Under the pieces are notes generated by a model, which was not told the origin of the DNA, did not search any database, and saw only the letters and a program-made list of their open reading frames with translations. Positions 476 through 24,792 of a stretch of DNA of 64,000 nucleotides are shown piece by piece; position 1 is the first letter of the stretch, and every line of letters begins with the position of its first letter. Source of the DNA: Prostheceraeus crozeri (taxonomy: Eukaryota > Platyhelminthes > Polycladida > Euryleptidae). The position numbers and the translations under genes were made by a program. The stretch spans positions 248,001 through 312,000 of the forward strand of contig CAJQUW010010458.1 in assembly GCA_907163375.1 (NCBI GenBank), read 5' to 3'.

Positions 476-484
476 ATGATGGGT

Positions 485-544: not shown

Positions 545-566
545 TTCAGACGAGAGATTGCCAACG

Positions 567-1603: not shown

Positions 1604-1605
1604 AA

Positions 1606-2781: not shown

Positions 2782-2869
2782 GTCCCTACCACACACCCCG
2801 AGAACGAACCACCGGCTCTCTTAAGGGCCACCATGGGGCAAGACATGATAGAACCTCCACGCGGTTTGC

Positions 2870-3180: not shown

Positions 3181-3185
3181 GAGTT

Positions 3186-3383: not shown

Positions 3384-3541
3384 CTACCATCATCACCCAT
3401 AAGAAATGTTATAAGATTTGCAAGTTAGACTAAGCGTGTTACTATTACCAAATGAAAAAGTATACATGCTTAAATCATCCACTGAAGCCCCATTCAAGTA
3501 ATTCAGTATGAAAGCAAAGATAATATGAAATAAAAATTTAT

Positions 3542-3996
3542 TATGGCATGTATTTCAAAAGGTCTTCATCATCAATATCGTCCCAGAGTCTGGCTTCACA
3601 TAGATCACAAAAACAGTTGAGCTGCTTTAATCGTTCTTCCACTGCGAGCCTCACTTTGTCAATATACTCCCACTCCGCCATAGTTCGTGGCTGGGAGTAA
3701 GGGGTGTACCACTCCTATAATTGGTGGAGGAATTTGGTGCTGGTGATCTCCATCACATCGTCAGTATCATACTGGAGATACTTCCACCTCACGCCTGTTA
3801 AGTCGGGACACTCCTTCTCACATACACTCTCCTCTTCCTCATCCGCTGCTAATGACAACTTTCTGATATTGTCCAGTCGGTACACCTTCTCTACCTTCCC
3901 CTTCGTTGGAGCGTTTGGTGCAACGAGCACTTTTGCTGATGTGCATGGAGAGGAGAACTCCAATGCGGTATTTCGTGTTGTTGGAGGACTTGTCAT
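3542..3996 (-). pseudogene. Acidic hypothetical protein interrupted by an in-frame TAG
   Basis: The frame starts at ATG 3996, opposite the polymerase gene. The first 93 codons are Ser/Thr/Pro-rich and then acidic (ADEEEE near 52-57), ending in LHQL followed by TAG. The same frame then stays open for 57 further codons to TAA at 3542. It contains an internal ATG and a compact acidic tail with CFCDLC and WDDIDDEDLL that looks like real protein. The simplest reading is one ~150-aa gene with a nonsense change. A second small ORF of 48 aa starting at the internal Met, or readthrough, is possible. No TATA box is seen on this strand, so it may share the CCAAT boxes of the divergent polymerase promoter. 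Confidence 0.45.
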
Positions 3997-4053
3997 GCTG
4001 ACTGTGAATAATAACTTTGAAATGTTTTCTAATTCTTAAGTATCAACAAGCAA

Positions 4054-4130
4054 CCAATCAGAATGAACAGCCAATGAATGATGAATATGAAAGTATATAT
4101 GCAAAGTGACATTCGTGTCATTTCACTCTG
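4054..4130 (+). promoter_or_regulatory. CCAAT-CCAAT-TATA-initiator promoter of the DNA polymerase
   Basis: CCAAT boxes lie at 4054-4058 (within the NF-Y-type ACCAATCAG) and 4071-4075, followed by TATATAT from 4094. A TTTCACTC initiator has its A at 4125, 31 bases from the first T of the TATA box. The gaps are 12 bases (CCAAT to CCAAT) and 18 bases (CCAAT to TATA), exactly as in the promoter at 27617-27688 on the other strand at the other end of the element. Confidence 0.8.
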
Positions 4131-4274
4131 TCTTTGAGACGTATAAGTGAAGTGTTCTCTAGCGAATTCTGTTATTATTTGAGGTGTACAAGTGAACTGC
4201 TATCTCGTGAATTCCAAATTTGAGTGAAGTCTCTATCTTGTAGAAGTATCAACCTTAAACTTGATTTCATTGAA

Positions 4275-7200
4275 ATGGTAAGTTGAAAATTTCCTCTCTC
4301 ATCTCCCTCAAACGTGTGGCTAATAGCATTTTCCTCAATTTCAGGCATCAACTTCATCACCAACGCCCTCCCTTCTCGAGGAAAGTTTAGAGTTGTTGAG
4401 TCAAGGTAGGTTGTAACAATACACTGAGACTTGAACAGAGATGATAGAATGATTTCTCTTTCAGGTGATGTGAGTTCCATCTCAGAACTGTCGCGACATG
4501 GCAACGAGTGGGAATGTGCTGACTGTGGGCACATCTTCACGAGGAAATGGGATCTCACCCGACACATCAAGCGAGGTGTTTGTCGACCTAAGCCGGCATC
4601 AATCTCCGAAGGTGGGGATGATTCTGTTAACGTCGTCTCCTTTTCTTGCGACTTGTGCGCTCAGTCTTTCGAGACACGTTTTGAACTATCTTCGCACAGA
4701 CTTCAACATACACACACGAACGATACCTACACCAACGGTACCTCCTCTATCCGACTCACTGAAGTGTCCATAAATAATTTAGTGAGGAACTACCAGATGG
4801 ACTCCTCAGAAACCATTGCTAACTTTGAGGAATGGTTTCATCAAAATTCATCATTGATAGAAGCGCTCTTCAACAATTTAGACAATTTTAGGATGAAGGC
4901 GCTCATCTATCTTAAAATAAAATATGTAAAAATCGACCACCATACTGGACAAATAATAGAGAGGTTGGAGTTTCACATACCCTCCTCTCCTGCAACCGAG
5001 GTTGTAGACTATGAGTCTTGGATAAATTTTCACATCCAAGGATTAAAATTAAATATTGATAAATTTAACGAGCGCGATAGCGGTCTCATTTTTGACGGCA
5101 TTGAGTCCGCCTTATTTAAAATCAGTTTATTAGGAAATCATAGTGGTCGAGGCTCCTTTAAACTTCCAAAAAATTTAAAAAACAAAACAGCAGTCATCAA
5201 TGTCGATTGCGAATCGCAATGTTTTAAATATGCTGTCCTCTCCATTCTCCACTATAATGACATCAATGCGAATCGAAATCGCACATATAGCTATAGGCAG
5301 TGGGAGAATGAATTAAACTTCGATGACTGTAATAGTGACGATATGAAAATTAAAGATATAGAAAAATTTGAAAAATTGAACAACATTAAAATAGTTCTCC
5401 ATGTTTGGGAAAAAGGATTGAAGGGTGTGCGCTACAACTCGCGTTCGAGTTGTTATGAACGTACAGTAAACCTGTTATTAGTAAAACAGGATGATAGTGA
5501 GGAATGGCACTACTGCGGTATTCCCAAAATCTCTCGCTTATACCACCACTTAGAAAACTCTAGTAGAGAGTTATATTACTGCGACAGATGTATTCGCCAC
5601 TTTAGGAGGAAAACTAAATTTGAAACTCATTATGAGTGGTGTAAGCGAGGTAAACTGCAAATGGAACGCATGCCCAAAGATAAGGAGTTTTCATATAGAG
5701 AGAATGGCGATGAACTAAGTCCTCTTCGTGTCATCTATGCTGACATCGAATGCTATATCGATGATAACATCCATCGACCAGCAGCCATTTCCTGCTATGA
5801 AGTATGGCATGATCACTTTAGGAGTAGGCAAAATAAAATGCGCGTCTGGCAAGGTGAGGATTGTATTTACCAATTCCTACAATTCCTCGAACAGGCTGTA
5901 AAATTTCAACAAAAGTATGATGGTGAACTCTATCGCAGATCATTGCATATGACAGCAGATGATCAAGCAAAATTTGATAGTTGCAACGTTTGCCCCAAAT
6001 GTAGGAAAACATTTGACGATGATAAGATTAAGAAAGTGCGCGACCATGATCACATCACTGGTAAATTTAGAAACGCACTCTGTTCAAAATGTAATTTTTC
6101 GCTGAGGATGAAGCGGCGTACATTACCCGTCATTTTCCATAATTTCAAGGGCTACGACAGCCATATGATAATAAAAGGAGGTTTAGGTCAAATGAAAGAG
6201 TGGAAGCTTGATGTAATAGCAAAAACGAGAGAGAAGTTTATGGCCATGACAGCAAAAGTGCCTGTCGATAAAACTAAAGAAAATAAGACGGTCTATTTTG
6301 ATATAAAATTTTTAGATTCCTACCAATTTATGACTGCATCACTGGCCTCTCTCGTGCAAAATCTAAAGTCTCTTCCACTAACACAAAATCTTAAGAAACA
6401 ATATCCAAATCTAACCGATGAAGTCATCACACGGAAAGGAGTCTTTCCATATGCATATTTTGATGCAATTAGTAAACTCGGCGAGACTTCTCTTCCGCCC
6501 ATAGATAAATTTAAAAATGATTTGACCGGCGCAGAATGTAAGACCGAAGATTATGATCATGCACAAGATGCATGGATAAAATTTGACTGCCATACATTTG
6601 GTGAATATATGATTGCCTACCTTAAGTTAGATGTATTTTTGCTGGCTGATGTATTTCAGGAGTTTCGACGAGTGGCATTAGAAGAAGATAAGTTAGATCC
6701 CGTCCACTTTGTCAGTCTGCCAGCCATGTCATTTAAGTCTGCTTTTAAAATGACTGGTGAGACCATTCATCTCTTACAAGATCCAGAGATGTATAATTTA
6801 TTTGAGCGAGGAATTCGCGGTGGTCTCACATTTGTAAATAAACATAGGTTAAAATCTGAAACAGTAGGTAATGATCATACCCATCTTAAGTATTATGATC
6901 AAAATAATTTGTATGGTAGTTCATTATCCAAACCGCTACCTCACTCTGAGTTTAGCTGGTTAGATGATAGTGAAATTCAACATTTCTCCAACCCTTCTAA
7001 CATACTAGCAATTCCAGATGAAGGTGATTGGGGATATTATTTTGAGATAGATCTAATCTATCCAAATAATATTAAACATAAAACCGTAGATTTTCCACTC
7101 GCACCCGAATCAGGTGAAGTGACCAAAGATATGTTTTCCGACTTTATGAAACAATTTCATAAAGATTTAGAATCATGCGGTCAACCCGACTATAAGCCTT

Positions 7201-8246
7201 GCCGCAAACTTTTACTCACCCAGTATGATAAGGAAAACTATCTAGTCCACTTTAGCATCTTAAAATTTTATTTAGAAATGGGCATGATTTTAAAAAGAGT
7301 TCACCGCATTATTAAATTTAGACAGAAAGCCTTCCTCAAACCATATATTGATAGTAACAGCCAGAAACGTGCACTAGCCCAAAATAATTTTGAAAAAGAT
7401 TTTTATAAATATAAGAACAACAGTCTATTTGGTAAGACGATGGAGGATGTTAGAAAGCGCGTAAACTACAAACTAGTTAATGATGATCAAAAGTATCACA
7501 AATTGGCCTCATCACCTCTATTCATCGATAGAGACATTATCGATGAGGACCTTATAGGTGTTAAAATGATAAAATCTGAAGTTGAGTTGTGCAAACCCAT
7601 CTATATTGGTCAAGCTGTACTAGATTACTCTAAGCTTGAAATGTACCAACTCTTTTATAAAATACTAAAACCATGTCCTCTCGTAAAAGAGGTTCGTTTG
7701 TTGGGTGGTGATACAGATAGTTTCTTCTTAGGTATTACCACTCAAAAAGATTTAAATTTCAATGAAGTAGGAAAATCTTTAGAAAGATATTTTGATACAT
7801 CAAATTATCCTACTGATCACCCACTCTACTCCATCAAAAATAAGGCAAAACTTGGCTGCTTTAAGGATGAGACAGCAGGGAAGGAAATAGATGAAATGAT
7901 TCTCCTCCGTCCAAAAATGTATTCTATGAAATTAAAGGATAGCGACGATAGTATTAAGCGTGCTAAAGGCATATCAAGATCATTGGTCTCTAACATGAAA
8001 CATAAGAATTTCAGGAAAGCCTATAGAATTAAAAATATAACGTTTGTCAATATGACAATCTTAAAATCTAAGTCGCATGAGATCAAAACTCATACTTTTA
8101 GGAAACGGGCGCTTTCAGCATGGGAGGATAAGAGGTGCTGGCTAGAACACAACATATCTCTTCCACATGGACATCCTGACACAAACATACCACCACCCAA
8201 AAGAATTAAACTCACACTACCACATTCAGGAGACGTCTTAGCATAA
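4275..8246 (+). CDS. POLB: Protein-primed family B DNA polymerase (Polinton type), spliced
   Basis: This is the replicative polymerase expected to copy the linear element by protein priming. I place the start at ATG 4275-4277: exon 1 is the ATG alone, intron 1 is 4278-4344 (67 bp, GTAAG...TTTCAG), exon 2 is 4345-4405, intron 2 is 4406-4464 (59 bp), and exon 3 runs to 8246. The joins are in frame, give 1281 aa, and replace an unspliced N-terminus that lies mostly in intron 2. In order it has C2H2-type zinc fingers (about 38-95), a Polinton-type N-terminal region, exonuclease motif I YADIEC (D448), a zinc/HNH-like insert with VRDHDHITGKFRNALC, Exo II HNFKGYD (about 580), Exo III YLKLD (about 740), polymerase motif A YDQNNLYG (D833), motif B KNNSLFG (about 1005), motif C DTDS (about 1104) and RPKMY (about 1170). 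All catalytic motifs are intact, so the gene appears functional. Confidence 0.97.
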
Positions 8247-8551
8247 TCATCCTTAACTTAGTATTTTGATGTTGATTTCTGTAGATAAACATTGTTGTTT
8301 TATGTATCGCATGAGATTGTTTTTTCCTTGTGAATATGTGTCCACATCTGTACATTCCCCATGTGATGACTTTTCCACTGAAAGACATTTTTCCTATCCC
8401 TGTATATTTCCACCCTTCACGAAGTAAAAAGACTTTTTGTATATAGCAATGTTTATTGAAGTGCGCTCATGTATATATTTTCAGTGGATGTTGTATAAAG
8501 TCTATTGCTTCACATTCATGTACATATTTCAATAAATGTTGTATAAAGACT
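8247..8551. terminator. Convergent 3' ends with overlapping poly(A) signals
   Basis: This spacer lies between the convergent polymerase (+) and minor-capsid-like gene (-). AATAAA on the + strand is at 8531-8536. On the - strand AATAAA (TTTATT at 8452-8457) serves the opposite gene. The two 3' UTRs therefore overlap by roughly 80 bases or more. Confidence 0.55.
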
Positions 8552-10102
8552 TCACTTTGTTTTCCGAAACACTAACGTTATGAGGGATTTAGTATCTTTC
8601 ACGCGGATGCACTCTTGTAAACCATTGGTAATTTTGATAGCAATAGAGGGTATAGTTTGTTTGACGACGGGATGATAGAAAATAGATTCAAACATCTTCT
8701 CGACTATTCCATATGAAGCGTCTTTATCATGAATGAAATCACGTAAAATGTATTCTTTTTTCTCACCAACAGAAATAGGTAGAATCAAATCACTTTGAAT
8801 GTAAAGGTGCTGTTCATGTTTATCATGTGTCATTGGTGTTTCTATACCAATCGTATGCGCAGCAGCAAACACTGTTTGTAGCATTGAAAAACCAAAGAGT
8901 TTTTTCAAATTTTTACTCAATTGACATTGAATGTCATCACCCAGTCTCAGAACAACGCGTTGATTTTCAATTGAAAACGAAATGTGGTGTGTCTTTACAT
9001 CATATTTACTTTTCATCACATGCTTCAACTTCTGTTGTATATAAGGATTTACTACATGAATGAAGCTTTCAACTGTATGATATAGACGCGGCATTATATT
9101 GATAGCAACTTTAGATTCTTCATAAGACTGGTAAATTTTCTTGATGCGATCGCCATAGATGTCCACCCACCATTCATCATTAACTGAATCAGCTTTAGTG
9201 TGATATTCATGAGAAGCATACACCACACCGCTTCCAATAATAGGTGTATAATGTCTTACAAAATGACGCAAGGTTGGAGAGAAATAAACTGTAAGTTTGT
9301 CATTATATTTCTGAATAACCAACTTATTTTTGTTCGCCATAATTTTCTCTCCATACTTCTTACCCACAGTCTCATTCCATCGTTTTACTAACTCAATAAG
9401 TGATAAAGGTTGAACACCACGCTTTTTCAAAATGATGCGTTCTTCGCATTCTACAACATCTTCATCAAATATTTTAAATCTATAATGAAATTTGTTGATT
9501 CGATTTGAATAAACTTTTTTAACATTTGCAGTAGCAATTGATGTTAGATGTAGTCCATGACCAAAACCAAGATGTGGATAGAATTCATTATCCAACCTCA
9601 GCGTAAGACCTTTAGTAAAAGAATGAAAGCGGAGGAACTGTCTCCCACTCCAATGATAGATAGTAAACTCATAAGCTTTCTGATTTTTATTCTTCATGAT
9701 GGAAGTATTACCACTGTTGAATGCCTTAATAATTTTCTCATTCCCAAATGGTTCATAAGAATCTGATTTTATCTGAATCCATTCATAGTTCCACTTTCCA
9801 TCTGATGTTAAATTGTATGGGAACTGAAATGCATTATTCATCGTTATTCCATCATGGGTGCGAGGAGTCAATATCATTTCTTCCAAATCATTCACATTCT
9901 GAATATTGCTATCATAGCAAATACTAGAAACGCCAACCTCCCATTCACCTTCTAAATGCAGTGGCCGATTTAATTCTACTCGATAGTCTGATGGTTTATT
10001 TTTGGGAAATTTATTCATAGAAGCATTACTGGGCAAGTAGATTAGAAACGAGTCCTTATTTTCACTTTCCATATTATTCACATTGGAAAAATATATTAGC
10101 AT
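8552..10102 (-). CDS. Minor-capsid-like Polinton protein, 516 aa
   Basis: The N-terminus carries a signature I associate with Polinton minor capsid/penton-type proteins: FLIYLPSNASMNKFP followed by an L-x-G-x-WEVGV stretch. Translation could start at the first ATG (10102) or, more in line with its paralogue, at the Met ten codons in (10072). The rest is beta-rich with no catalytic motif, which suits a structural virion protein. It is followed upstream by a shorter paralogue with the same WEVGV block, so the pair is probably a tandem duplication that has specialised. The frame is uninterrupted. Confidence 0.7.
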   Translation of the reverse strand: MLIYFSNVNNMESENKDSFLIYLPSNASMNKFPKNKPSDYRVELNRPLHLEGEWEVGVSSICYDSNIQNVNDLEEMILTPRTHDGITMNNAFQFPYNLTSDGKWNYEWIQIKSDSYEPFGNEKIIKAFNSGNTSIMKNKNQKAYEFTIYHWSGRQFLRFHSFTKGLTLRLDNEFYPHLGFGHGLHLTSIATANVKKVYSNRINKFHYRFKIFDEDVVECEERIILKKRGVQPLSLIELVKRWNETVGKKYGEKIMANKNKLVIQKYNDKLTVYFSPTLRHFVRHYTPIIGSGVVYASHEYHTKADSVNDEWWVDIYGDRIKKIYQSYEESKVAINIMPRLYHTVESFIHVVNPYIQQKLKHVMKSKYDVKTHHISFSIENQRVVLRLGDDIQCQLSKNLKKLFGFSMLQTVFAAAHTIGIETPMTHDKHEQHLYIQSDLILPISVGEKKEYILRDFIHDKDASYGIVEKMFESIFYHPVVKQTIPSIAIKITNGLQECIRVKDTKSLITLVFRKTK

Positions 10103-10111
10103 ACGTTTGCA

Positions 10112-11507
10112 TTAACTCTTCATTCGGAAATGGAGTGTGATACTTGTCACAGCATCTTTATGAAAAGGAATCAACGCACCAGCATCGTCATAAATGGCAA
10201 TATCAATTTGTGGGATGTAGTTTGATTTCAGCTTTGTATAATGCACTTTCTTGAAAGTATGCTCAGATAAAATACTGCAGCTTTTTGGCTGGTATGGTAT
10301 CATTGCTAGCAATGGAGCTTCAACATCTCCCACACGTACATCTTCACCAATATTGGAATATATCTGAAAATAGTTAATACGACGCGATAGCGACATGTCT
10401 GCGCTAGCTTTGGTTACAGTACCACTTTTAAAGATATTTTGATCAAAACCCAAAATGTCCATTAGAGTTTTATCCATAATTAGTTCAATACCTTTTCCAC
10501 TTATAGTGAGAGACAAAGTACCTTCTTTTCAGAAAATGAAATATGTTGGTCATTATCACTTCATTTAAATAATCTACAACCAATTTAACCGAAGTAATAA
10601 TGCGAGGCATCAACACTCTTGTTTCATGTAAGATACCACCTAAAGGCTCTACACACTTTCTGTATAAAGATACGGTCCATTCTGTATCAAATTGATTTGA
10701 CCTTTCACATGGTAAATGTTGCATATCAGATTTTCCATGAACAGCTGCAGAACGATGTCGTAAGAACTGATGAAAATCTTTTGAACAAACTAATACTAGA
10801 TCATCATCATTTAATTTGCTTATTGCAATATGATTAGATGATTTAATATAAGTCAATGTTGCCACTTGTTTGCCATCAACTCGAAGGAGATAATTAAATT
10901 TCTTCAATAATGTTTCAGGAGTCATGTTTGTCTTTCTTGGCTTAATCACAATCTTCTTCACCAACGTCTTCTCATTTCTTGGAATAAGATCTACATAATA
11001 AGCTTCCTCTCGATATATTAACTGTTTATGACCACTTATGTGGTAATTAACGTTAAAATTATCATAGCTTGTTAAGGCGCTAGCGAGGTAACCTAAATCA
11101 TTTCTTAAACTTGGACTTAAACCAACAATCCAATCTTTCTCAACTACATGATGTACATAATTATAATCATCATTGTGCGGAGTAAATTGGACAATATGTT
11201 TACTCGCTTTATTCAAGAAATCATATATAAACTTTTTACATGATAAGAGATCTTTCTTTGGCCACTGTGGAATGTATACTCGGCACCCCTTTTCACATTG
11301 ATAAGCAGCTGTACGCCTCATATTAATAGTCATCACCTCATGATCAAAAGTATAGACACAGTTGCTATAAACAAGTTGAGTGACACCCACTTCCCAATTT
11401 CCATTTAGCTGTTGTGCATGATCAATGGGAGTAGAAAAGAGTGCGGCTCGATTACTAGTAAATCTCTTTGTAGCCGCATTGCTAAGCAAAATATTATAAA
11501 ACGACAT
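10112..11507 (-). pseudogene. Second minor-capsid-like protein, frameshifted
   Basis: This is a paralogue of the 516-aa gene. From ATG 11507 it reads MSFYNILLSNAATKRF and then NGNWEVGVTQLVY. The frame breaks near 10500-10516, where KRRYFVS must pass into SLTISGKGIELIM by skipping one base. The rest continues to a stop at 10112, giving about 464 aa in total. The join matches the paralogue, which has HISFSIENQRVVLRL at the equivalent place, so one extra base in the sequence is the likely cause. Its start lies only 35 bases from the divergent gene at 11543. Confidence 0.65.
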
Positions 11508-11542
11508 TTTTATATTGCTAATCTGCAACTTTGCATAACATC

Positions 11543-11899
11543 ATGAAGACTTGGATTTTGGACTCTCTACAATATATCAGAGTTGATCGTGATGGAAACG
11601 TACATTTCAAAAATTCTCATGGTCATACATCAAGAGGAATTACATTAACATGGCGACAATTTGTCAACCTCAATGATATCATGAGGGATTTGGAATATTT
11701 TGAAACATTAAGATTCATCTCCTTGGGTGATCAAGTTTGGCTTCAACATTACAGAAATGAAATTCAAATCTACCATTCTCATTCCGCAAACTGTTTCTCA
11801 TTTCGCAAATACAATTGGGAGAAGTATAGAAGATATATACATCGCTCCATCATGACATTTATTCGTCGTGAGTTCATCGCCCTACTATGCAAATCTTAA
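11543..11899 (+). CDS. Small protein A, possible PC4-like nucleic-acid-binding fold
   Basis: The 118-aa frame starts at ATG 11543. A TATAAAA at 11495-11501 is a possible promoter. The protein begins KTWILDSLQYIRVDRDGNV and contains RGITLTWRQFVNLNDIM. This pattern (beta strands, then a G-I-x-L...W/F...L...I helix) resembles the PC4/p15 transcription-coactivator fold. The second half (EIQIY...FSFRKYNWEKYRRYI) may repeat it. This is inference from pattern only. It is a tandem paralogue of the next gene and sits directly upstream of the TBP-like gene on the same strand, which makes a transcription role attractive. Confidence 0.6.
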   Translation: MKTWILDSLQYIRVDRDGNVHFKNSHGHTSRGITLTWRQFVNLNDIMRDLEYFETLRFISLGDQVWLQHYRNEIQIYHSHSANCFSFRKYNWEKYRRYIHRSIMTFIRREFIALLCKS

Positions 11900-11921
11900 T
11901 CAGACATGACTACCACACATC

Positions 11922-12206
11922 ATGAGTTGGAAATTAGATTCCCTACAACGTATTGAAACGGATCATGATCGAAACGTCTATTTCAAAGATTCAACTGGAA
12001 ATGTGAGAAGAGAGTTTGCTTTATCTTATCGTCATTTTCAATCTCTACATCATATCATGAAGGACTTGAAATACTTCTATATGAAAAGACATTCACGTAT
12101 TGGAAATCGCATCTGGCTGCGCGTCAACAATCGGCGAATTCAACTCTATCATTCCCAACTTCATACTAACTTCACATTTCATCAAGGTAGTTGGGGAAAA
12201 GTATAA
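11922..12206 (+). CDS. Small protein B, paralogue of protein A
   Basis: The 94-aa frame starts at ATG 11922, 23 bases after the stop of its paralogue. The shared skeleton is W-x-LDSLQ-x-I near the start, D-x-NV-x-FK, an R-x3-L-x3-R-x-F block, IM-x-DL-x-YF, and YHS in the second half. It is shorter at the C-terminus. The TATA box of the TBP-like gene overlaps its last codons, so the genes are packed tightly. Function is unknown; the PC4-like suggestion made for protein A applies equally. Confidence 0.6.
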   Translation: MSWKLDSLQRIETDHDRNVYFKDSTGNVRREFALSYRHFQSLHHIMKDLKYFYMKRHSRIGNRIWLRVNNRRIQLYHSQLHTNFTFHQGSWGKV

Positions 12207-12238
12207 AAAGGAAGGTACATCGCTCAATTTACTCATTC
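12202..12238 (+). promoter_or_regulatory. TATA box and initiator for the TBP-like gene
   Basis: TATAAAA at 12202-12208 is followed by TCATTC with its A at 12235, 33 bases from the first T, and then ATG at 12246. The initiator matches the TCA[T/C]TC seen at three other promoters in this element, where the distance is 31. No CCAAT box is present. Confidence 0.55.
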
Positions 12239-12245
12239 TTTCATC

Positions 12246-12792
12246 ATGAAGCGCCATCGCTACACCATCGTCAAACATTCTCCGTCGCTTCAGACTCTAC
12301 ACCAAAATCGATCTCACAACATTAACCCAACAGCTTCCAAACAGCAAGTATTACCCGGGCCGTCCTCAAATGTTAGTGGTGAAGATGAACAATTCACGGA
12401 ATCTTCAACTCTTCCCAAATGGGACTGTACAGATTCTCGGCGCCCTTTCTCATTCATCGGCGCAGTCAATGCGCTTAGAGCTACCAAGACTACTACGTCG
12501 GATATGGAAGAGGGAGAGGTGTGTGATGTCGAATCTGATTGTGGACAATATGGTGATCTCTACTCAATTGAGTGACAGTCTATCATTTTTGAAGATTCGT
12601 ACCAGCAGTTACAGTTTGTGTTATGAACCCGAACTTTTTCCTGCAGCTCTCATTAGTTGTTGGTTACCTGTGCATGTGGCAATCTTTCATAATAGTAAAG
12701 TGATCATTACTGGACTAAAATCTCATGTACAAGCAAATATGATCCTAGACTATCTCATTGAGTATGTACGTACCCAGCGGATTGTAAAATAA
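12246..12792 (+). pseudogene. TATA-binding-protein (TBP) homologue with one early frameshift
   Basis: After the first ten codons (MKRHRYTIV...) the frame must skip one base in the AAA at 12273-12275. It is then open to TAA 12792, about 180 aa, the size of the TBP core. Both direct repeats of the TBP saddle are visible. Repeat 1 has LYTKIDLTTL, NSKYYPGR and LQLFPNGTVQILGAL. Repeat 2 has VDNMVISTQL, YEPELFPAAL and VAIFHNSKVIITGLK, and the YEPELFP motif is a hallmark of TBP. Of the four DNA-intercalating Phe positions known in TBP, three are kept (LFPNG, ELFPA, IFHNS) and the first seems replaced by Pro. A 109-aa frame from the same ATG is the shifted continuation, not a separate gene. TBP nucleates transcription at TATA boxes, which several genes here possess. 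The frameshift may be a sequencing error. Confidence 0.85.
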
Positions 12793-12824
12793 AAAACAAT
12801 TTTTCCAAAAATGATGTTTTTATT
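12788..12824. terminator. Compact convergent poly(A) signals
   Basis: On the + strand AATAAA (12788-12793) overlaps the TAA stop codon of the TBP-like gene. On the - strand AATAAA (complement of 12819-12824) lies about 25 bases beyond the protease stop. The two transcripts end tail to tail within about 60 bases. Confidence 0.6.
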
Positions 12825-12848
12825 TCAAATCATGATAGAACTTACAAA

Positions 12849-13280
12849 TCATTTTTTCATTAGAGGATGGATTACATGAAAGTTTTGAATAATAGATGCA
12901 AATCGAGATACATGTAAACGTTTTAAGATGAAGTACAGTACAAAAGCACCACACGTTGATGAAAGTGGATGTTGTAGTATGCGTTCATTTCGCTGATATT
13001 GACGCGTATGTTTTCTCAACCACTGCTGTGTTGGTATATTTGGAGGTTGAGCAAGAGAGTCAAATAGTTCACCACGTCGGTCTTCTCCAATAAAGATCGC
13101 TTTCCAATGCTCACCGCCTAAATTCTGTGATTGAGTGTTTAGCACAATAAAGATGGGATAGTGATTTACTGCAGGTGGTAAGGTATCGAGTGAATAGACA
13201 TTATCGAAAGCTTTCAACGTCGCTTCGTCTGCATTACGCTGCACTTTAGTCTTAATATCGTCAGCAGTCAACCAACTCAT
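12849..13280 (-). CDS. PRO: Adenain-like cysteine protease
   Basis: This 143-aa protein has the order of active-site residues of the adenovirus-type/Ulp1 cysteine protease family: His58 in GGEHW, Asp74 in ELFDSL, Gln103 in ILQHP and Cys110 in SSTCGAF. Such enzymes mature capsid and core proteins in virions. The length is short but complete for the catalytic domain. Its ATG overlaps the stop of the major capsid gene by one base (TAATG), so the two are expressed as neighbours of one minus-strand block. Confidence 0.9.
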   Translation of the reverse strand: MSWLTADDIKTKVQRNADEATLKAFDNVYSLDTLPPAVNHYPIFIVLNTQSQNLGGEHWKAIFIGEDRRGELFDSLAQPPNIPTQQWLRKHTRQYQRNERILQHPLSSTCGAFVLYFILKRLHVSRFASIIQNFHVIHPLMKK

Positions 13281-14562
13281 TAACGATTATACTGAAGAAT
13301 CACGTCACGATACTTTGTAATTTCAATATTTGAATCGAAGACTGCATAAATTAATACATTGATCGTCTCAGGTAGTGTTTTTTTGAACGTCAAATCCAAA
13401 CGAATATTATGAGGCACGTTCTCTTGACGATAGGGGGCACTAATATCGATGACAGCAGTCAAATCAAATGCATAAATAGTATATCCACTCTTAAACTCTT
13501 TCATAGTAAGTCCGTTGGTGTCATCCGTATTGTAAAAGCAAAGACATGACATCATAAAATCAACATAACTGCGATAAATTGATCCGAAGCAAAAATCTGG
13601 TTTGTAGGGTGGACCAGGGATGACTCACACCTTACACGGTAAAGCAATTTCACTTAACTGATTGTGTTTAAAATTGAAAGGATTCTTCTTTATATTACCA
13701 TTAAATGCATCATTTTCAACCATTGCCACCATGAGGAGCTTCGGCGCCTCCGATGGAAAGAGGCCATCTTTCATGAAACTCTTTTGATCTTTCGGAATTG
13801 TAAAGGTGAGAAGCTTTGTATGCTGAACGGGGTAAATGGCATTTTGGCGGTTAAGGCCTTCAGCATGCCCTCTAATGACACTTGGATTCGGTACTACTCG
13901 ACGAATGTAAAGTGCAATATCTTCCACATGAATTCTAAAATTGTCAACTGAAGCAAATGCATTCAGCGCAAATTCAGGCTTATTCAATGTCAGCTTGAGT
14001 CGCATGCTGGTATTACACAGTAAAAACTTTGACTGTCTAAAGAAGTCTAAATTCAGCGGACCATATAGCTGACATACTTTACTATCTTTAATCATAGCAG
14101 ATCGCTTTACAAAGCCACTGTTTGTTTCAACATCAATTTTTCCTGCTTCATCTCTATACCATCCCATGGCTTCCATATGACTTTTTTGTGCTGCTGGATG
14201 AAAACTGTGATACATGATTGAAATATGATTTATAGGGATAATCGCTTTGACCACCTTCCACCTGCTGCTCTCCAATCGTTAGAGAAACATCGCGAAGTAA
14301 TGTAGTCAATGGTAAATTGTTCAGTCCAACTTTATGTGCATCGTCAATAGCAGTTCCATCTGCTTGCTGAATTCTAAACCTCAACTCAAGCATCGCATAA
14401 CTCAAATCTATGTAGTCATCACTACCACCAGGAATAACAAATTCAATGGGGCCAGCATTCTCAGCTGTTCGAGGATGATAATCTACAATACTTGAACTAA
14501 GAATATCTGTCTGTATGGCTTGTTGATCGAACAAAACAAAAACCGGAAGTTTTACACTCCAT
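13280..14562 (-). pseudogene. Major capsid protein (double jelly roll), interrupted
   Basis: This is the shell-forming capsid protein of Polintons, recognised from GPIEFVIPGGSDDYIDLSYA near the N-terminus, a YPYKSYF block, KKNPFNFKHNQL two-thirds along, and SGYTIYAFDL...LPETINVLIYAVFD near the C-terminus. The expected length is about 430 aa and the span fits. ATG 14562 overlaps the stop of the upstream gene. Breaks: a one-base shift near 14530 to enter the frame, one in an A6 run near 14180 (SSTK to SHMEAM), and disturbed sequence with a TGA near 13610-13625. Each shift is explained by one surplus base. The protein family is secure; intactness is not. Confidence 0.85.
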
Positions 14563-15018
14563 GATTAGAAGTTATGCAGCGTTCGTCGTTTAGCGCTGAT
14601 GACTGATTAGAGCTTCTGCGTCGTTTGCGTGAATGCCTTTTGACTGAAGATCGCAACTTACCAGCTCCGCGATGTTTCCTCCTTCCTTTATTCATTCGTT
14701 TAGGTGATTTCTTTCCTTGAGTAACACCAGCAAAGGTCTGCTTCAATGTTTTTAAACCGCGTTCCTTCCCACGATTCAACAAACTGCTCTTAAAACTTCT
14801 ACCTCTGAAAGATCACTAGCAACATCACCAACAAAGCCAACGGCATTACTTAAAACATTTCGTTTTAAAGATCTACCGACATTGGATATGAGAGGTGCTA
14901 CAACAGATTTCAGTGCACCAAGTATGCTACCTCCACTTTGGCGGCGAGCGCCGATGTAAATTTGTCCTCCACCACTTACATAGGAGGGTCGTGAATAAAA
15001 TGAGGCAGTTGGATTCAT
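14552..15018 (-). pseudogene. Basic virion core-like protein, frameshifted
   Basis: ATG 15018 begins MNPTASFYSRPSYVSGGG. A Gly-rich and then hydrophobic/amphipathic part (GGSILGALKSVVAPLISNVG) is followed, after a one-base shift near 14785-14800, by a strongly basic tail with KKSPKRMNKGRRKHRGAGK and KRHSRKRRR. The total is about 155 aa. Polintons commonly carry a protein of this type between capsid and integrase genes. The layout resembles adenoviral core or membrane-active minor proteins, but homology to those is only a suggestion. The stop overlaps the capsid ATG by 11 bases. Confidence 0.65.
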
Positions 15019-15059
15019 AGCTCAAACCCTAAACATTGTTAGTTACAACTTTGCATGAA

Positions 15060-16154
15060 TCACTGTCGATCACTTAGATGATAGATGTCGGCACGACGCA
15101 TCCAAGAGTTCATACTTGAAGGATAACCAGTCCATTTAACAAGACACCATTCTTCACCTTGCGTTTTTTTACATCGAATGATTTTCTCTACCAAATATGT
15201 TTCACTTTCAGTGACTACCTCAATCTCATCGCGGTATAAAAAGCTACCCTCAATTTCTTCATTATATCGTAATCTTTCAACTTGTAGGTGGTCGGAGAGT
15301 CTTTTTGATTAATCCTTGATACTGTAAATACCTCCTCTGTCCAATTCGGAAGGTACCCTTTAGCAAAAACACTTTTCACTTTTGAGATACGAACTTTATC
15401 GCCTATTTTCACATCACTTTTCACATGAGTGCGTTTACGTTGGAATGAGTCGCGCACTTTATCTACATTGTCAGCATTTACATCTACTGGTCTGAGTCCA
15501 ATAGAACGATGGATAGAGTGATTGTAGGCATGGAGTGTATATTGTAGAACCTTTGTCCAATTTTGTGTCAAGTTGGCAGTAAAATGTCGCCACAAGCGAT
15601 TTTTTAATGTGCGATTTTAAACGTTCAACGAGTGCAGCTTTATAAGCACTCTTTACACTAAACAACTCAATGTCATGCCTCTCAAATAATCTTCTCACAT
15701 GCTGATTTTCAAACTCTTTTCCTTGATCACTCTGAATTCTTTTTGGAATCCGACCTTCTCGAAAAATTGTTTGGAATGCTTTTGCTACTCCTTTCCCTTC
15801 TTTAGTTTTTGAAGTTTGAGCCCACGCATAACGCGAGAAAATATCAATGACGGTTAAAATAAAATTATTGCCCGAGTTATGTTTTGAAATGGAGGCGACA
15901 TCGCACAAATCTGCTTGCCACTGTTCATCGATGTCATGAACAATATAATGGCGGGTGCGGTACTTCTTTTTCGCTTGGTTGTGGAGTGTATAGGTAGCCT
16001 GACCCTTTAACCATCGTTTCACTTGTGATTGTGGAAGACCACTCGCTTTTGATAATTTCTTGATAGATGCAAATCCTGCCGGATGTTTTACATCATAATA
16101 GATTGACTTCAAACGTTCAGTCGATGACGACTGACTCTTTTTCCTCCTTCTCAT
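15060..16154 (-). pseudogene. INT: Retroviral-type integrase with C-terminal chromodomain, two frame breaks
   Basis: This is the DDE integrase that inserts the element. An N-terminal helix-turn-helix-like segment (SKASGLPQSQVKRWL) is followed by the catalytic core with Asp82 (QWQADL), Asp143 (IQSDQGKEF) and Glu177 (AALVERL). The frame breaks in an A6 run near 15605; skipping one base restores IKNRLWRHFTANL. After HAYNHSIHRSIGLRPVDVN and an SH3-like GDKVRI segment there is a second break near 15265. The last part, to TGA 15060, is a chromodomain (YLVEKIIRCKK, EEWCLVKWTGYPSSMNSWM). Chromodomains on Polinton integrases are established and may steer integration to heterochromatin. As sequenced the gene cannot make one protein. 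Confidence 0.9.
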
Positions 16155-16338
16155 CTTTTTGTTTTCTTGCCTTTCTACATTTACAACAATCTACAGCATT
16201 TAGCTTTAGCGGTTTTGCGATGAGATCGTGTTCACATTGCTTAGGGGTTTCATTATGAGAGCTGGCGCAGCAAGTGCAAGTGACAACGACATTCACCTCT
16301 GGCGGCTCATTACATGGCAAGCAACACATCTGCTTCAT
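16117..16338 (-). CDS. Small cysteine-rich protein, 73 aa
   Basis: The ATG is at 16338 and the end overlaps the integrase start by 38 bases. Cys clusters MCCLPC, CTCC, CEHD and CCKCRK suggest metal binding, followed by a Lys/Glu-rich tail. I recognise no family. The compact overlap on both sides fits the tight packing of this minus-strand block, but the region also has sequence-quality problems, so the exact frame is uncertain. Confidence 0.4.
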   Translation of the reverse strand: MKQMCCLPCNEPPEVNVVVTCTCCASSHNETPKQCEHDLIAKPLKLNAVDCCKCRKARKQKDEKEEKESVVID

Positions 16339-16360
16339 ATTAATAGTCTGAGAACATGTA

Positions 16361-16525
16361 TTACCTAGGAGGAGCTGTTTTACGTTTTCCTTTTACCAGT
16401 TTTAGTGGCGATGTAGATCTACGTCGAGTTCTTCCTCTTGTTTGCTTAGTGAGTGTGGGATCGGGATTGTAAGCAGTACAGGTGACGAGACATCCTCTTA
16501 AACCAATTTTGTTTGGCATTTTCAT
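16361..16525 (-). CDS. Very small basic protein, 54 aa
   Basis: ATG 16525 overlaps the TGA of the upstream gene as ATGA, the same junction type seen between ATPase and its neighbour. The protein starts MKMPNKIGLRGCLVTC and ends in a basic, Arg/Lys-rich tail (RGRTRRRSTSP, VKGKRK). It could be a virion DNA-condensing peptide; that is a guess. The clean start/stop overlap is the main support. Confidence 0.4.
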   Translation of the reverse strand: MKMPNKIGLRGCLVTCTAYNPDPTLTKQTRGRTRRRSTSPLKLVKGKRKTAPPR

Positions 16526-16790
16526 CGGCCTGAAGCATTGGTGTAGGTATTGCCACTGTTGAATTCAAGTTCTTTCAATGTCTCATTATACTAAAAGCAA
16601 ATTTTGGTACTATTATGCTTAGTTTTCAATAGTTTAAGAAAGTGATGACCAACCAGGTGGGAACATAGCCCTGACGGCGTACTTTCTACGTGTCGCATAT
16701 ACTGAATCAAGTCTTTCATTAATCGTGTGAAGCATCAATCACTTTATTTTCATCTGTAATGATTCTCCTTACTATCATTTACATTGAGAT
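16522..16790 (-). pseudogene. C-terminal part of the gene starting at 24147, displaced by the tract
   Basis: Downstream of the left duplicate (16778-16992), minus-strand reading gives fragments in shifting frames that belong together: NVNDSKENHYR, TRLMKDLIQYMRH, RRKYAVRAMFPPGW, HFLKLLKTKHN and YNETLKELEFNSG, ending in TGA at 16522. They are the expected continuation of the conserved protein whose N-terminal 97 codons are at 23847-24147. Several one-base shifts within 270 bases point to poor base quality. Confidence 0.5.
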
Positions 16791-16992
16791 GTGGTTTCAA
16801 TACTATTGAATTTAAGAGATAATGGCATTGTGTGCGCGATGATGGCTAAAGGTGTAGCCAGTCGATACAGAGTCAACGCATCTTAATTCTTCTAGTTTTT
16901 TTCAATTGCTCAACAGTTATCCGATTGTATTATAATACAGCACGATGTGGATCTTTGATGTGAACATCTTGCTGATAAATCTATTTCTTTTC
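16778..16992. repeat. Left copy of a ~0.2-kb direct duplication flanking the tract
   Basis: The sequence is the same as 23847-24046 except for many small differences, mostly single extra bases in the left copy (for example GTAGCCAGT against GTAGCAGT, GTCAACGC against GTCACGC, GATAAATC against GATAATC). Evolutionary divergence would give substitutions and deletions as well. The pattern looks like uncorrected long-read sequence. Confidence 0.85.
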
Positions 16993-19900
16993 TTTGTCTT
17001 GTCTTTTATTGTCTTCTTTCCTTTTTCTCTTTTACCTTTTTCATTACTCTCGTTCTCTCTCTTTTCTTCTTTACTTCTCCTTCTTTTCTCTATTTCTTTC
17101 TTTTCTTCTTTCTCTTTTCTTTCCACATCTTTCTTTCACCTTATTTATCTTTCTTTCCTTTTCTTTCTTCTTTCTCTTCTTTCTCTTCTTTCCTTTCTTC
17201 TCCTTTCTTCTCTTTCTCTCTTTCTTCTTTTCTTTCTTCTTTCTTTTTCTTTCTCTTTTCTTTCTCTTCTTTCTTTCTTTTCTTTTTTCTTTTCTTTTTC
17301 TTTTCTCTTCTTTCTTCTTTCTTTCTTTCTCTTTCTCTTTCTTCTTTCTTTTCTTTTCTTTCTCTCTTCTTTCTTTTTCTTCTTCTCTTTCTCTCTTTCT
17401 TTTTCTTCTTCTTCTTTTTTCTTTTTCTTCTCTTTTCTTCTCTTTTCTTTCTTCTTTCTTTCTTTTCTTTCTTTTCTTCTTTCTTTTCTTCTTTTCTCTC
17501 TTTCTTCTTTCTTCTCTTTCTTCTTCCTTCTTCTTTTCTTTTCTTTTCTTCTTTTCTCTCTTTCTTCTTCTTTCTTTCTTTATCTTCTCTTTCTTCTTTC
17601 TTTCTTTTCTCTCTTCTCTTTCTTTTCTTTTCTTTTTCTTCTCTTCTTTCTTTCTCTTCTTCTTTCTTCTTTCTTTCTCTTCTTTCTTCTTTCTTCTTTT
17701 CTTTCTTTCTTTCTTCTTCTTTCTTTCTCTTTCTTCTTTCTTTCTTTCTCTTCTTTCTTCTCTTTCTTTCTCTTTCTCTCTTCTTCTTTCTTTCTTCTTT
17801 CTTTTCTTCTCTTTCCTTTTCTCTTCTTTCTTTTCTTTCTTTTCTTCTTTCTTCTTTCTTCTTCTTTTCTTTCTTTTCTCTTCTTTCTTTCTTCTTTCTT
17901 TCTTCTCTTCTTTCTTCTTTCTCTTTCTTCTTTTTCTTTCTCTTCTTTCTTCTTCTTTTCTTTTTCTTTCTTTCTTCTTTCTCTTTTCTTTTCTTCTTCT
18001 TTCTTCTTCTTTCTTTTCCTCTTTTCTTTCTCTTCTTTCTTTTTCTTTTCTTTCTCTTTCTTCTTTCTTTCTTCTTCTTTTCTTTCTCTTTTCTTTTTCT
18101 TCTTTCTTTCTTCTTTCTTTTCTTCTTTCTTTCTTTCTTCTCTTTCTCTTCTTTCTTTCTTTTCTTTCTTCTTTCTTTCTTCTTCTTTTCTTTCTCTCTT
18201 TTCTTCTTTCTTTCTTTTCTTTTCTTTTTCTTTCTTCTCTTTTTCTTCTCTTTCTTCTTTTCTCTTTCTTCTTCTTTCTTCTTTCTTTTTTCTTCTTCTT
18301 TCTTTCTTTCCTTTCTTTCTCTTCTTCTTTCTTTCTTTTCTTCTTTCTCTTTCTTCTTTTCTTCTTTCTTTCTTCTTCTTTCTTTTTCTCTTCTTTTTCT
18401 TTCTTCTCTCTTTCTTTCTTTCTTCTTTCTTTTCTTCTTTCTCTTCTTTTCTTTTCTTTCTCTTTCTTTCTTCTTTCTTTTCTTTCTTTTTTCTTTCTTC
18501 TTTCTTCTTTTCTTCTTTTCTTTCTTCTCTTTTCTTCCTTTCTTCTTCTTCTTTCTTTTCTTCTTTCTTTCTTCTTCTCTTTTCTTTTCTTCTCTTCTTC
18601 TTCTTTTCTTTCTTTTCTTTTCTTCTTTCTTTTCTTTCTTTTTCTTCTCTTTCTTCTTTCTTTCCTTCTTTTTCTCTTCTTTTCTTTTCTTTCTTTCTTT
18701 CTTTTCTTTTTTCTCTTCTTTTCTTTCCTCTTTCTCTTCTTTTCTTCTTTCTTCTTCTTTCTTTTCTTTTTCTTTCTTCTTCTCTTTTCTTTCTTTCTTT
18801 TCTTTTCTCTTTCTTCTTCTTTCCTTTCTTTCTTTTCTCTTCTTCTTCTTTCCTCTTTCTTCTTCTCTTTCTCTCTTTCTTCTTCTTTTTCTTCTTTTCT
18901 TTCTTCTTTTCTCTTCTTCTTCTTTCTTCTCTTTCTCTTTTCTTTTCTTTCTTCTTTCTTTTCTTCTTCTTTTCTTTCTTCTTTTTCTTCTTCTTTTCTT
19001 CTTTCTTTCTTCTCTTTCCTTTTCTTTTCTTTCTTCTTCCTTCTCTTTCTTTTCTCTTCTTTCTTTTCTTTCCTTTCTTCTTTCTTCTCCTTTTCTTTCT
19101 TCTCTTCTTTCTTTCTTCTTTCTTTCTCTTTCTTTTCTCTCTTTCTTTCTTTCTCTTTTCTTTTCTCCTTTCTTTCTTCTTTCTCTTCCTTTTCTTCTTT
19201 CTTTTCTTTTCTTTCTCTTTTTCTTCTTTTCTTTCTTCTTTTCTTCTTCTTTCTTTCTTTCTTCTTTCTTCTCTTCTTCCTTTTCTCTTCTTCTCTTTCT
19301 TCTTCTTTCTTTTCTTTCTTCTTTTCTTTCTTTCTTCTTTTCTTTCTTCTTCTTTCTTTCTCTTTTTCTTTCTTTCTCTTTTTCTTTCTCCTTTCTTTTC
19401 TTCTTCTCTTCTTTCTTCCTTTCTTTCTTCTTTTCTCTTCTTCTTCTTTCTTTTCTTTCTTCTTTCTTTTCTTCTTTCTTTTCTTCTTTCTTTCCTTTCT
19501 TTCTTTTCTTCTTTCTTTTCTCTTTCTTCTTCTTTCTTTCTTTTTCTTTCTTCTTCTCTTTCTTTCTCTTCTTTTCTTTCTTCTTCTTTTCTTTCTCTTT
19601 CCTCTTCTTTCTTCTCTTCTTTCTTTTCTTTCTCTTCTCTTTCTTTCTTTCTCTTCTTTCTTCTCTTTTCTTCTCTTTCCTTTCTCTTCTTCTCCTTTTC
19701 TCTTCTTCTTTCTTTCTTCTTTTCTTCTCTTTCTTCTCTTTCTTCTTTCTTTCTTCTCTTCTCTTTCTTTCTCTTTCTTCTCTTTCTTTCTTCTTCTTCT
19801 TTCTTCTTTCTTCTCTTCTTTTCTTCTTCTTTCTTTCTCTTTTCTTTCTTCTTCTTTCTCTTTCTCTTCTTTCTTCTTCTCTTTTCTTTCTCTTCTTCTT

Positions 19901-22900
19901 TCTCTTTCTTTCTTCTCTTTCTTTTCTTCTTTCTTTCTTCTTCTTCTTTCTTTTCTTCTCTTCTTTCTTCTTTCTCTTTCTTTCTTCTTTTCTTTCTTCT
20001 TCTTCTCTTCTTCCTTCTTCTTTCTTTTCTTTCTTCTCTCTTCTTTTCTCTTTCTTCTTCTTCTTCTTTCTTCTTTCTTCTTCTCTTTCTCTTTTCTTTC
20101 TTTCTTTCTTCTCTTCTTTTCTTTCTCTTTCTTCTTCTTCTTTCTTTCTCTTTCTCTCTTTCTTCTTTCTCTTCTTCTTTCTTCTTTTCTTCTTCTTTCT
20201 TCTCTTTCTTTCTCTTCTCTTCTTCTTCTTCTCTCTCTTCTTTCTTTTCTTCTCTTCTTTTCTTCTTTTCTTTCTTCTTCTTTCTCTTTTCTTCTTTTCT
20301 CTTCTTTTCCTTTCTTTCTTTCTTCTTCTTTCTTTCTTCTCTTCTTCTTTCTCTTTCCTTTCTTCTTCTCTTCTTCTCTTTCTTTCTTCTTTTCTCTTTC
20401 TTTCTTTTCTTCTTTCTTCTCTTCTTTCTTCTTCCTCTTTCTCTTTTCTCTTCTTTCTTCTTTCTTTTCTTCTTCTTCTTTCTTTCTTTTCTTCTTCTCT
20501 CTTTCTTCTTTCTCTTTCTTTCTTTCTTTCTTCTTTCTTTTCTCTCCTTTCTCTTTTCTTCTTTCTCTTCTTTCTTTTCTTCTCTTTTTCCTTCTCTTCT
20601 TCTTTCTCTTTCTTCTTCTCTTCTTTCTTCTTTCTCTTCTTTCTTCTTTCTTCTTCTTTCTCTTCTTTTCTTTCTTTCTCTTCTTTCTTTCTTCTCTTTC
20701 TTTCTCTTCTTTCTTCTTTCTTTTCTTTCTCTTTCTTCTTTCTTTCTTTTCTCTTTCTTCTCTTCTTTCTTCTCTTTCTTCTCTTTTCTTCTTTCTTTCT
20801 TCTCTTTCTCTTCTTTCTTTCTTTTCTTCTTTCTTTCTTCTTCTTTCTTCTTTTCTTTCTTTCTTTTCTTCTTCTTCTCTTTTCTTCTTTCTCTTTCTTC
20901 TTTCTTTCTTCTCCTTTTCTTTTCTTTCTTTTTCTTTCTCTTCTTTTCTTTCTTTCTTTCTTTTCTTTCTTTCTTTTCTCTTTCTTTCTTTCTTTCTTTC
21001 TCTTCTTTCTTCTTTCTCTCTTTCTTTTTCTTCTTTCTTTCTTCTTTCTTCTTTCTTTCTTTCTTCTTCTTTCTTTTCTTTCTTTCCTTTCTTCTTCTCT
21101 TTCTTCTTTTCTTTCTTTCTTCTTCTTTTCTCTTTCTTTTCTTTTCTTTCTTCTTTCTCTTCTTTCTTTTTCTTTCTTTTCTTTCTTCTTTTCTTCTTTC
21201 TTTTCTTCTTTTCTTTCTTTCTTTTTCTTTTCTTCTTCTTTCTTCTTTCTTTCTTTTCTTTCTTCTTTCTTTTCTTCTTTTCTTCTTCTTTTTTCTTTTC
21301 TTCTTTCTTTTCTTCTTTCTTCTTTCTTTTTCTTTTCTTTCTTCTTTTTCTTTCTTCTTTCTTTTTCTTCTTTTTTCTTTTCTTTCTTTTCTTTTTCTTT
21401 CTTCTTTCTTTCTTTTTTCTTTTCTTCTTTCTTTTCTTTCTTCTTTTCTTTCTTCTTTTTTCTTTTCTTTTCTTTCTCTTTTCTTCTTTTCTTTCTTTCT
21501 TTTCTTTTCTTTCTTTTTTCTTTTCTTTTCTTTCTTCTTTCTTTTTCTTCTTTTCTTTCTTTCTTTTTTTCTTTCTTCTTTTCTTCTTTTCTTTCTTCTT
21601 CTTTCTTTCTTCTTCTTTCTTTTCTTCTTTTCTTTCTTTCTTTTCTTTCTTCTTTTCTTTCTTTCTCTTTCTTTTCTTCTTTTCTTTTCTTTCTTTCTTT
21701 CTTCTCTTTCTTCTTTTTCTTTCTTCTTTCTTTTTCTCTTCTCTTCTTTTCTTTTCTTTCTCTTTTTCTTTTCTTTCTTTTCTTTTTCTTTCTTCTTTTT
21801 CTCTTTCTTTTTCTTCTTTCTTTTCTCTTTTTCTTTCTCTTCTTCTTTCTTCTTTCTTCTCTTTTTCTTCTTTTCTTTCTTTTCTTTCTTTTCTTTCTTT
21901 CTTTCTTCTTTCTTCTTTCTTTTCTTCTTTCTTTCTTTCTTCTTTCTCTTTTTTCTTCTTTTCTTTCTTCTTTCTTTCTTCTCTTTCTTCTTCTTTTTCT
22001 TTTTCTTCTTCTTTTCTTCTTTCTTTTTCTTTCTTCTTCTTTTTCTCTTTTTCTTCTTTCTTCTTCTTTTCTTCTTTTCTTTTCTTTCTTCTTTTTCTTT
22101 CTTCTTCTTTCTTTCTTTCTTCTTTCTTTTCTTTTTCTTTCTTCTTCTTTTCTCTTTTCTTTCTTTCTCTTCTTTTTCTTTTCTTTTCTCTTTCTTCTCT
22201 TTCTTTTCTTTCTTTTTCTTTTCTTCTTTTCTTCTTTTCTTTCTTTTCTTTCTTTTCTTCTTCTTTCTTTCTTCTTTTCTCTTTCTTCTTCTTTCTTTCT
22301 TTCCTTCTTTTTTTCTTCTCTTTTCTTTTCTTTCTTCTTTTCTTCTTTCTTTCTCTTTCTTTCTTTCTTCTTTCTTTTCTTTTTCTTCTTTCTTTTTCTT
22401 TCTTTTCTTTTCTTCTTTTCTTTTCTTTCTTCTTTCTTTTTCTTTCTTTTCTCTTTTCTTCTTTTTCTTTCTTTCTCTTCTTTTTTTCTTTTCTTCTTTC
22501 TTCTCTTTTCTCTTTCTTTCTTTTCTTTCTCTTTCTTCTTTTCTTCTTTCTTTCTTTCTTCTTTCTTTCTTTCTTCTTTTTCTTTTTCTCTTTTCTTTTT
22601 TCTTCTTTCTTTTCTTTCTTCTTTCTTTTTCTTCTCTTTTCTTTCTTCTTTTCTTTCTTCTTTTTCTTTTCTTCTTTTCTCTTCTTTTTCTTTTCTTTCT
22701 TCTTTCTTTCTTTCTCTCTTTTTTTCTTCTTTCTTCTTCTTTCTTTCTTCTTTTTCTCTTTCTCTTTTCTTTTTCTTTCTTCTCTTTCTTTCTTCTTTCT
22801 TTTTCTTTCTTTCTCTCTTTCTTTCTTCTTTTCTTCTCTTTTCTTCTTCTTCTTTCTTTCTTTTCTCTTCTTCTTCTTTTCTTTTCTTTCTTTCTTTCTT

Positions 22901-24761: not shown

Positions 24762-24792
24762 TTTATTACTTTGAGACTCAACATTTGCATAA

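Follow-up and report, generated by a model that had tools for sequence, protein, structure and literature searches.

The window, which is the whole 64,000-nucleotide stretch analysed, contains a Polinton that carries a gene for a TATA-binding protein (TBP). Polintons are recognised by a 6-bp target site duplication and AG...CT ends. The element has the termini AGTAGT...ACTACT, a target site duplication of TGCATG on each side, and terminal inverted repeats that are 95.5% identical over 858 aligned positions. It is 29,404 bases long, including a 6.8-kb polypyrimidine array; its left end lies 575 bases outside the window and its right end at 28829. Within the inverted repeats (window 1-438 and 27698-28548) lie tandem repeats of a 326-base unit. 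The element and its genes are as follows:

1..28829 (.), Polinton copy, delimited by inverted repeats, ends and the 6-bp duplication
4449..8246 (+), PolB-like protein with zinc fingers and an endonuclease VII domain
11543..11899 (+), ORF118, 43% identical to the first part of the overlapping gene and its tandem paralogue
11922..12206 (+), overlapping gene, first part (ORF94 here; 216 aa in loci L009-L011)
12246..12575 (+), overlapping gene, second part, overprinting the first TBP repeat and cut off from the first part in this copy
12274..12792 (+), TBP-like frame, 172 aa plus stop, start missing in this copy
12849..13280 (-), cysteine protease-like gene (Peptidase_C48, E 7.5e-4, 19.8 bits, just under the cut-off of 20.7)
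13280..14393 (-), capsid-protein candidate, broken here, intact (425 aa) in L009 and L011
15471..16154 (-), integrase (rve; PF00665, E 2.5e-10, above the cut-off)
24144..24809 (-), ATPase, presumed packaging type (Pox_A32, E 0.023, 14.6 bits, well below the cut-off of 22.8)

The Pfam matches of the PolB-like protein are to endonuclease VII and C2H2 zinc-finger domains only, and neither a Pfam polymerase family nor a PDB polymerase was matched; we take it to be a PolB on account of polymerase motifs, e.g. GGDTDS, recognised by eye. The capsid candidate, presumably a capsid protein, has no family match and no PDB match. Homologues of the ATPase adjoin the integrase in L020 and L037. Neither an RNA polymerase nor a TFIIB was found among the 20 element frames compared with Pfam, and thus the host enzyme would be required. 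The window copy is decayed, with disruptions in the TBP start, the overlapping gene, the gene at 10485-11507 (340 aa here versus 465) and the capsid gene (fragments here versus 425 aa in L009/L011; also broken in L010).

The polypyrimidine array (window 16.9-23.9 kb) lies inside a 2358-aa open frame (17071-24147, -), the start of which is similar to a 234-aa protein of family B, defined below (L020:9123, -). The array is an in-frame expanded microsatellite within an element gene. In the host flank, 43117-44152 and 46805-47341 hold transposase pieces (DDE_Tnp_1_7, E 1.8e-26 and 9e-6) as well as a frame that matches Rabaptin-like and FYVE families.

The TBP-like protein and its relatives

The TBP-like frame matches the TBP profile PF00352 with 62.9 bits (cut-off 22.9) in two stretches, one for each repeat, and has the saddle fold with two pseudo-symmetric lobes that characterises TBP. 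Identity to solved TBPs is 19-26%. The cut-off is also passed by the related sequences P0003, P0077, P0125 and L029, and by P0018 with one passing stretch.

Residues were compared in an alignment of P0001 with 59 of the 124 listed proteins (60 rows in all); we rely on presumed residue roles and human numbering, with equivalences taken from the alignment. All four intercalating Phe are usual in cellular TBP, though not required of each PF00352 member. Three of the four are kept here. None of the 60 rows has a substitution in the Phe pair, Asn or Thr of the second repeat, in the first-repeat Phe that remains or in one TFIIB-contact Glu, and the other TFIIB-contact Glu is kept in 59/60. The other first-repeat Phe is replaced by Pro in 60/60 rows and the first-repeat Thr by Leu (55 rows) or Met (5). 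At the first Asn, 50 rows have N, 1 has D and 9 have a gap. The C-terminal lobe of cellular TBP contacts the upstream half of the TATA box and TFIIB. Thus, the pattern over these rows indicates that the lobe for the upstream TATA half and TFIIB is kept and that the other lobe is altered. The first-repeat changes could represent a loss of DNA binding.

The host's own TBP gene lies apart from the element, in two or more pieces on contig C9306, and encodes an ordinary TBP whose closest PDB entries are human TBP constructs. The host also has a sequence (L018; G000:C3829:150900-152700) with two TBP-profile matches, one across an in-frame TGA, which we take to be TLF/TRF2-like; TLF is an animal trait. 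With this sequence and a TBP closest to the human constructs, the genome is apparently that of an animal. A tree was built from 48 rows (37 of the 124 listed proteins, 5 rows from the window genome and 6 cellular rows). In it, all 42 element-type rows form a single clade (100/100) on a very long branch, apart from the 6 cellular rows. The host TLF-like row falls within the latter on a branch of 2.05, in a region of long, weakly supported branches.

Beyond this genome, a sequence search returned 19 related proteins and a profile search 336, of which the best 120 are listed. Scans of IMG/VR with TBP and with PolB gave no relative, and neither did a scan of GTDB contigs. Cellular TBP changes very slowly; the element TBPs offer hundreds of naturally occurring relatives that have diverged strongly. 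Co-location with capsid genes was assessed using 124 TBP entries (the 19 and those listed of the 336) and 120 of 311 capsid entries. TBP- and capsid-bearing contigs of equal size were found at 4,515, 5,387, 5,810 and 7,106 bases. Among the 41 TBP contigs that measure 4 kb or more, these make four matches against a null mean of 0.23, a number reached by 0 of 20,000 jittered lists; the size limit was set because short sizes coincide by chance. Over all sizes the coincidence is weak (4 matches against a null mean of 1.24, P 0.037). Only above the limit is it convincing, as an indirect sign that the metagenome TBPs, too, may lie in Polintons. The order of relatedness of the paired TBP and capsid proteins is the same in both genes. 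The entries P0126 and P0127 comprise a capsid protein that is 100% identical to that of L009 over 425 aa (contig of 12,876 bases; sources including JGI and ENA) and an 86% relative. The latter carries the NCBI name of a Pseudomonadota MAG, apparently a case of host or virus DNA that ended up in a bacterial bin.

Copies, families and selection

The genome searched comprises 2.05 Gb; a first look gave 10,982-11,765 candidates, and 150 were scored per search. TBP occurs at no fewer than 150 places: all 150 scored match without internal stops, and 149 are 98% identical to the window protein. The Pfam TBP search likewise gave 150 scored places, all above the cut-off, namely the two host TBP pieces, two on C3829 and 146 others, some with one stop. 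Gene content was determined for 15 of these 146 loci. TBP is accompanied by a PolB match in 15/15, with main PolB pieces at least 54% identical in 14 and only 25-36% identical in L032, and six also have protease, capsid and integrase inside a 9.7-kb stretch.

The loci fall into families whose TBPs are about 40% identical. Family A is that of the window (L022, L026), with A2 as a relative (L031; TBP 80%). Family B (L019-L021; TBP 40%) shares the gene order of A, and family C (L023-L025, L027-L030, L032, L033; TBP 40-42%; L030 in two pieces) has a different layout. At the family C locus L037, capsid, protease, integrase and ATPase lie 10-14 kb off on the same contig, presumably in one element with the TBP.

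Substitution rates were obtained (Nei-Gojobori) from 23 loci, with L030 dropped (two-piece match), L024 unpaired and pairs among L001-L008 left out. Between A and A2, dN/dS is 0.24-0.33 (dS 0.25-0.32; 123 codons, the L031 frame ending early). It is 0.27-0.48 between B and C (dS 0.95-1.6), 0.20-0.40 between A and B or C, where synonymous sites are near saturation, and higher (0.43-0.55) between A2 and C. Values within families span 0.23-0.99 on few changes, as expected for copies that decay after insertion. Judged by these codon comparisons, TBP in these Polinton families is under purifying selection. This Polinton lineage encodes its own TBP as a lasting gene. Between some copies there are only 6 mismatches over 3.5 kb, and such numerous, near-identical copies point to a recent spread of TBP-bearing Polintons.

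The first-pass annotation had read the locus as a Polinton-encoded TBP homologue with both repeats and three of four intercalating Phe. Its homology claim is upheld by the two-stretch profile match, which also excludes its alternative of no TBP match, and its count of Phe by the uniform Pro at the first position. The inverted repeats, termini, 6-bp duplication and rve integrase confirm its placement in a Polinton, and the gene, which it suggested looking for beside PolB/protease in other Polintons, stands with PolB at all fifteen loci and with protease, capsid and integrase at six.

An overlapping gene and shared putative promoter boxes

In L009-L011, a 216-aa gene runs with its second half over the first TBP repeat in a different frame (L010:6729-7379). 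In 10 loci this frame stays open past TBP residue 1 for 99 codons in family A (101 in L026), 97 in B and 105 in C. Only 0-2 of 1000 synonymous shuffles of TBP per locus are equally open, and the third frame is unremarkable (300-835 of 1000 shuffles as open). The products of A, B and C can be aligned and have in common a WxxYKRxxH stretch and an FSF...SIE tail. Exceptions are L021, with a stop after 42 codons, and L019, L022, L024 and L032, which are broken upstream. Comparing A with A2, ORF216 has a dS of 0.55 and a dN of 0.12 outside the overlap (106 codons), and a dS of 0.15 and a dN of 0.11 inside it (108 codons). These frame and substitution patterns show a second gene, conserved in three families, that lies over both the TBP gene and its TATA box.

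The overlapping gene has no Pfam match. ORF118 was found by tblastn at family A/A2 loci only. A sequence impression of ORF118 and ORF216 as PC4-like coactivators found no backing: no such Pfam family matched, and their PDB rows are unrelated (adiponectin, E 2e-4, with single stretches not significant, and two weaker).

Two kinds of box precede the element genes:

4098..4105 (+), box TATGCAAA, 351 nt upstream of the PolB ATG and thus beyond the distance tested
10106..10113 (-), box AATGCAAA, upstream of the gene at 8552-10102, 41 nt to its second ATG and 11 nt to its first
11530..11537 (-), box TATGCAAA, before the gene at 10485-11507
11886..11893 (+), box TATGCAAA, before ORF94/216
12202..12211 (+), TATA box upstream of the TBP gene, TATAAAAAGG in this copy and TATAAAAGG in most other copies examined
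15050..15057 (-), box CATGCAAA, upstream of the gene with its start at 15018, head of the capsid-protease gene row
24784..24791 (-), box TATGCAAA, upstream of the ATPase gene
25189..25196 (-), box TATGCAAA, upstream of the gene with its start at 25149

The TATA box lies 43 nt (L010, L031, L027) or 46 nt (L020) before the TBP ATG in all families. Because it sits inside ORF216 codons, its conservation need not reflect promoter function alone. The first-pass annotation had further spoken of TATA promoters carried by the element, which is not supported as a general description: TATAWA is not significantly enriched before genes of the window family (2/19, random mean 0.79, P 0.20), B (3/13, P 0.054, with the TATA box of its TBP gene uncounted because an upstream ATG was taken) or C (1/10, P 0.27). 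The counts thus give no support to TATA boxes as promoters throughout the element; a canonical box stands at the TBP gene, and six other genes share another box.

The element part of the window has 7 copies of this other box, [ACT]ATGCAAA, and the 35 kb of host flank have 3. It stands 20-75 nt before 6/19 conserved genes, as against a random mean of 0.14 and with 0 of 2000 random sets reaching six, and in families B and C a weak enrichment of T[ATG][ATG]GCAA is seen (3/13, P 0.017, and 3/10, P 0.007), all P values being optimistic since the motif was picked after viewing. The count of six uses the second ATG of the gene at 8552-10102 (10072, not 10102), adopted after comparison with family B; the first ATG gives 5/19. 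The remaining 13/19 genes are without the box. In L031 (A2), the box is kept before homologous genes, and TAAGCAA precedes four of the same genes in families B and C (B: P516, P340, p118b; C: p118b, MNPTAS). More weight attaches to the recurrence at the same genes across families whose synonymous sites are nearly saturated. Three of the 7 boxes continue as ATGCAAAT, the octamer of POU-type factors.

A possible role for the element TBP

We propose that host TBP and Pol II would use the canonical TATAAAAGG box to start transcription of the element TBP gene. The resulting protein, predicted to keep its C-terminal lobe and to have changed DNA-contact positions in the N-terminal lobe, would then sit on core boxes ([ACT]ATGCAAA here, TAAGCAA in other families) some 30-50 nt before several genes. 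Its candidate sites would be the GCAA boxes TATGCAAA and TAAGCAAA, as against the TATA sequence TATAAAAG. There it could capture host TFIIB and thereby host Pol II, and a second wave of element genes would be switched on without host TFIID. We infer the DNA binding, the TFIIB capture, the order of events and the use of host Pol II from sequence, and give such recruitment at the element's own boxes about an even chance. The altered TBP suggests a private gene-switching system placed on top of the host transcription machinery. The fuller proposal is a more tentative one, which we hold to be possible rather than probable: an animal Polinton lineage lacking an RNA polymerase would have a private promoter system of two steps, in which the N-terminal lobe has been re-cut, box and reader change by lineage, and the TBP promoter and the first half of the gene are overprinted.

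The element TBP might instead be a plain substitute for host TBP on ordinary TATA boxes, chiefly that of its own gene, with ATGCAAA and TAAGCAA read by a host POU-type factor or by the product of the overlapping gene. The retention of both repeats and of three intercalating Phe is compatible with this, as is the perfect TATA box of the TBP gene, and the octamer extension of 3 of 7 boxes fits a POU-type reader. However, TATAWA is not enriched before element genes, the first-repeat contact positions are changed in 60/60 rows, and TAAGCAA of families B and C is no octamer; we regard this reading as rather unlikely. Retention of the TFIIB-contact Glu on a protein with a partly changed DNA surface could also indicate action against the host, by soaking up TFIIB or blocking host promoters and so shutting down host transcription. 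The invariance of three Phe and of the second-repeat DNA contacts would be unexpected for a pure decoy, and the shared boxes would be left unexplained, which makes such a role improbable.

TBP bends DNA, as is well established, so the protein could serve replication, integration or packaging and not transcription. The kept TFIIB-contact positions would then have no obvious use, and we judge this very improbable. The disrupted frame of the window copy would be accounted for by a retrocopy of host TBP or a sequencing artefact inside the element, an explanation that we reject as having practically no chance: 150/150 scored places match, the ordinary host TBP is encoded separately, on another contig and in two or more pieces, the loci are linked to PolB, and 42 element-type proteins form one clade (100/100) apart from the 6 cellular rows. 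A host retrocopy absent from other copies, the alternative named in the first-pass annotation, is thereby excluded, as at least 150 places match and three families carry the gene.

If the proposed recruitment of host Pol II by the element TBP is true, an integrated element of 20-30 kb that borrows the host polymerase would have privatised promoter recognition with one small protein. It would make testable the evolution of TBP DNA preference, with one lobe and the box changed, and early versus late gene programmes in Polintons.

Like cellular TBP, the element protein has both repeats, the saddle fold and the TFIIB-contact motif; it differs in its 19-26% identity, the replaced first-repeat Phe and Thr and its very long branch. 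TLF/TRF2 is a diverged TBP paralogue with altered DNA contacts and is similar in these respects, whereas the host TLF-like row groups, with weak support, with the cellular rows and not with the element clade. Inverted repeats, a 6-bp target duplication, an rve integrase and PolB-like, protease-like and ATPase-like genes are shared with Polintons/Mavericks and adintoviruses. The TBP and the overlapping second gene set the element apart from Polintons/Mavericks, and to our knowledge neither belongs to the Polinton gene set; neither appears in the gene sets given in the accessible text of the open-access Polinton literature consulted. Within the available portions of open-access papers on Polintons, Mavericks or adintoviruses and TATA-binding (PMC10675990, PMC10132985, PMC12220804, PMC11071308, PMC12085832), no Polinton TBP is described, and an earlier report elsewhere is possible.

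TBP-fold proteins of DNA viruses are a further point of likeness, compared here by description only, and the large DNA viruses and mirusviruses that encode them differ in having far larger genomes. Many TBP-encoding large DNA viruses bring their own RNA polymerase. As described in the accessible parts of the sources, B263R of ASFV is the TBP of a large DNA virus (PMC5825884), further large DNA viruses have TBPs (PMC11410667), and 59% of mirusvirus genomes encode one (PMC10132985). In Chrysochromulina parva virus BQ1, the TBP and TFIIBs likely interact with the host polymerase according to its authors, as far as the available text goes (PMC12085832). BQ1 is an unrelated large algal virus with two TFIIBs, whereas none is recognised in the element; the proposed logic is alike, in that a viral TBP would redirect host Pol II.
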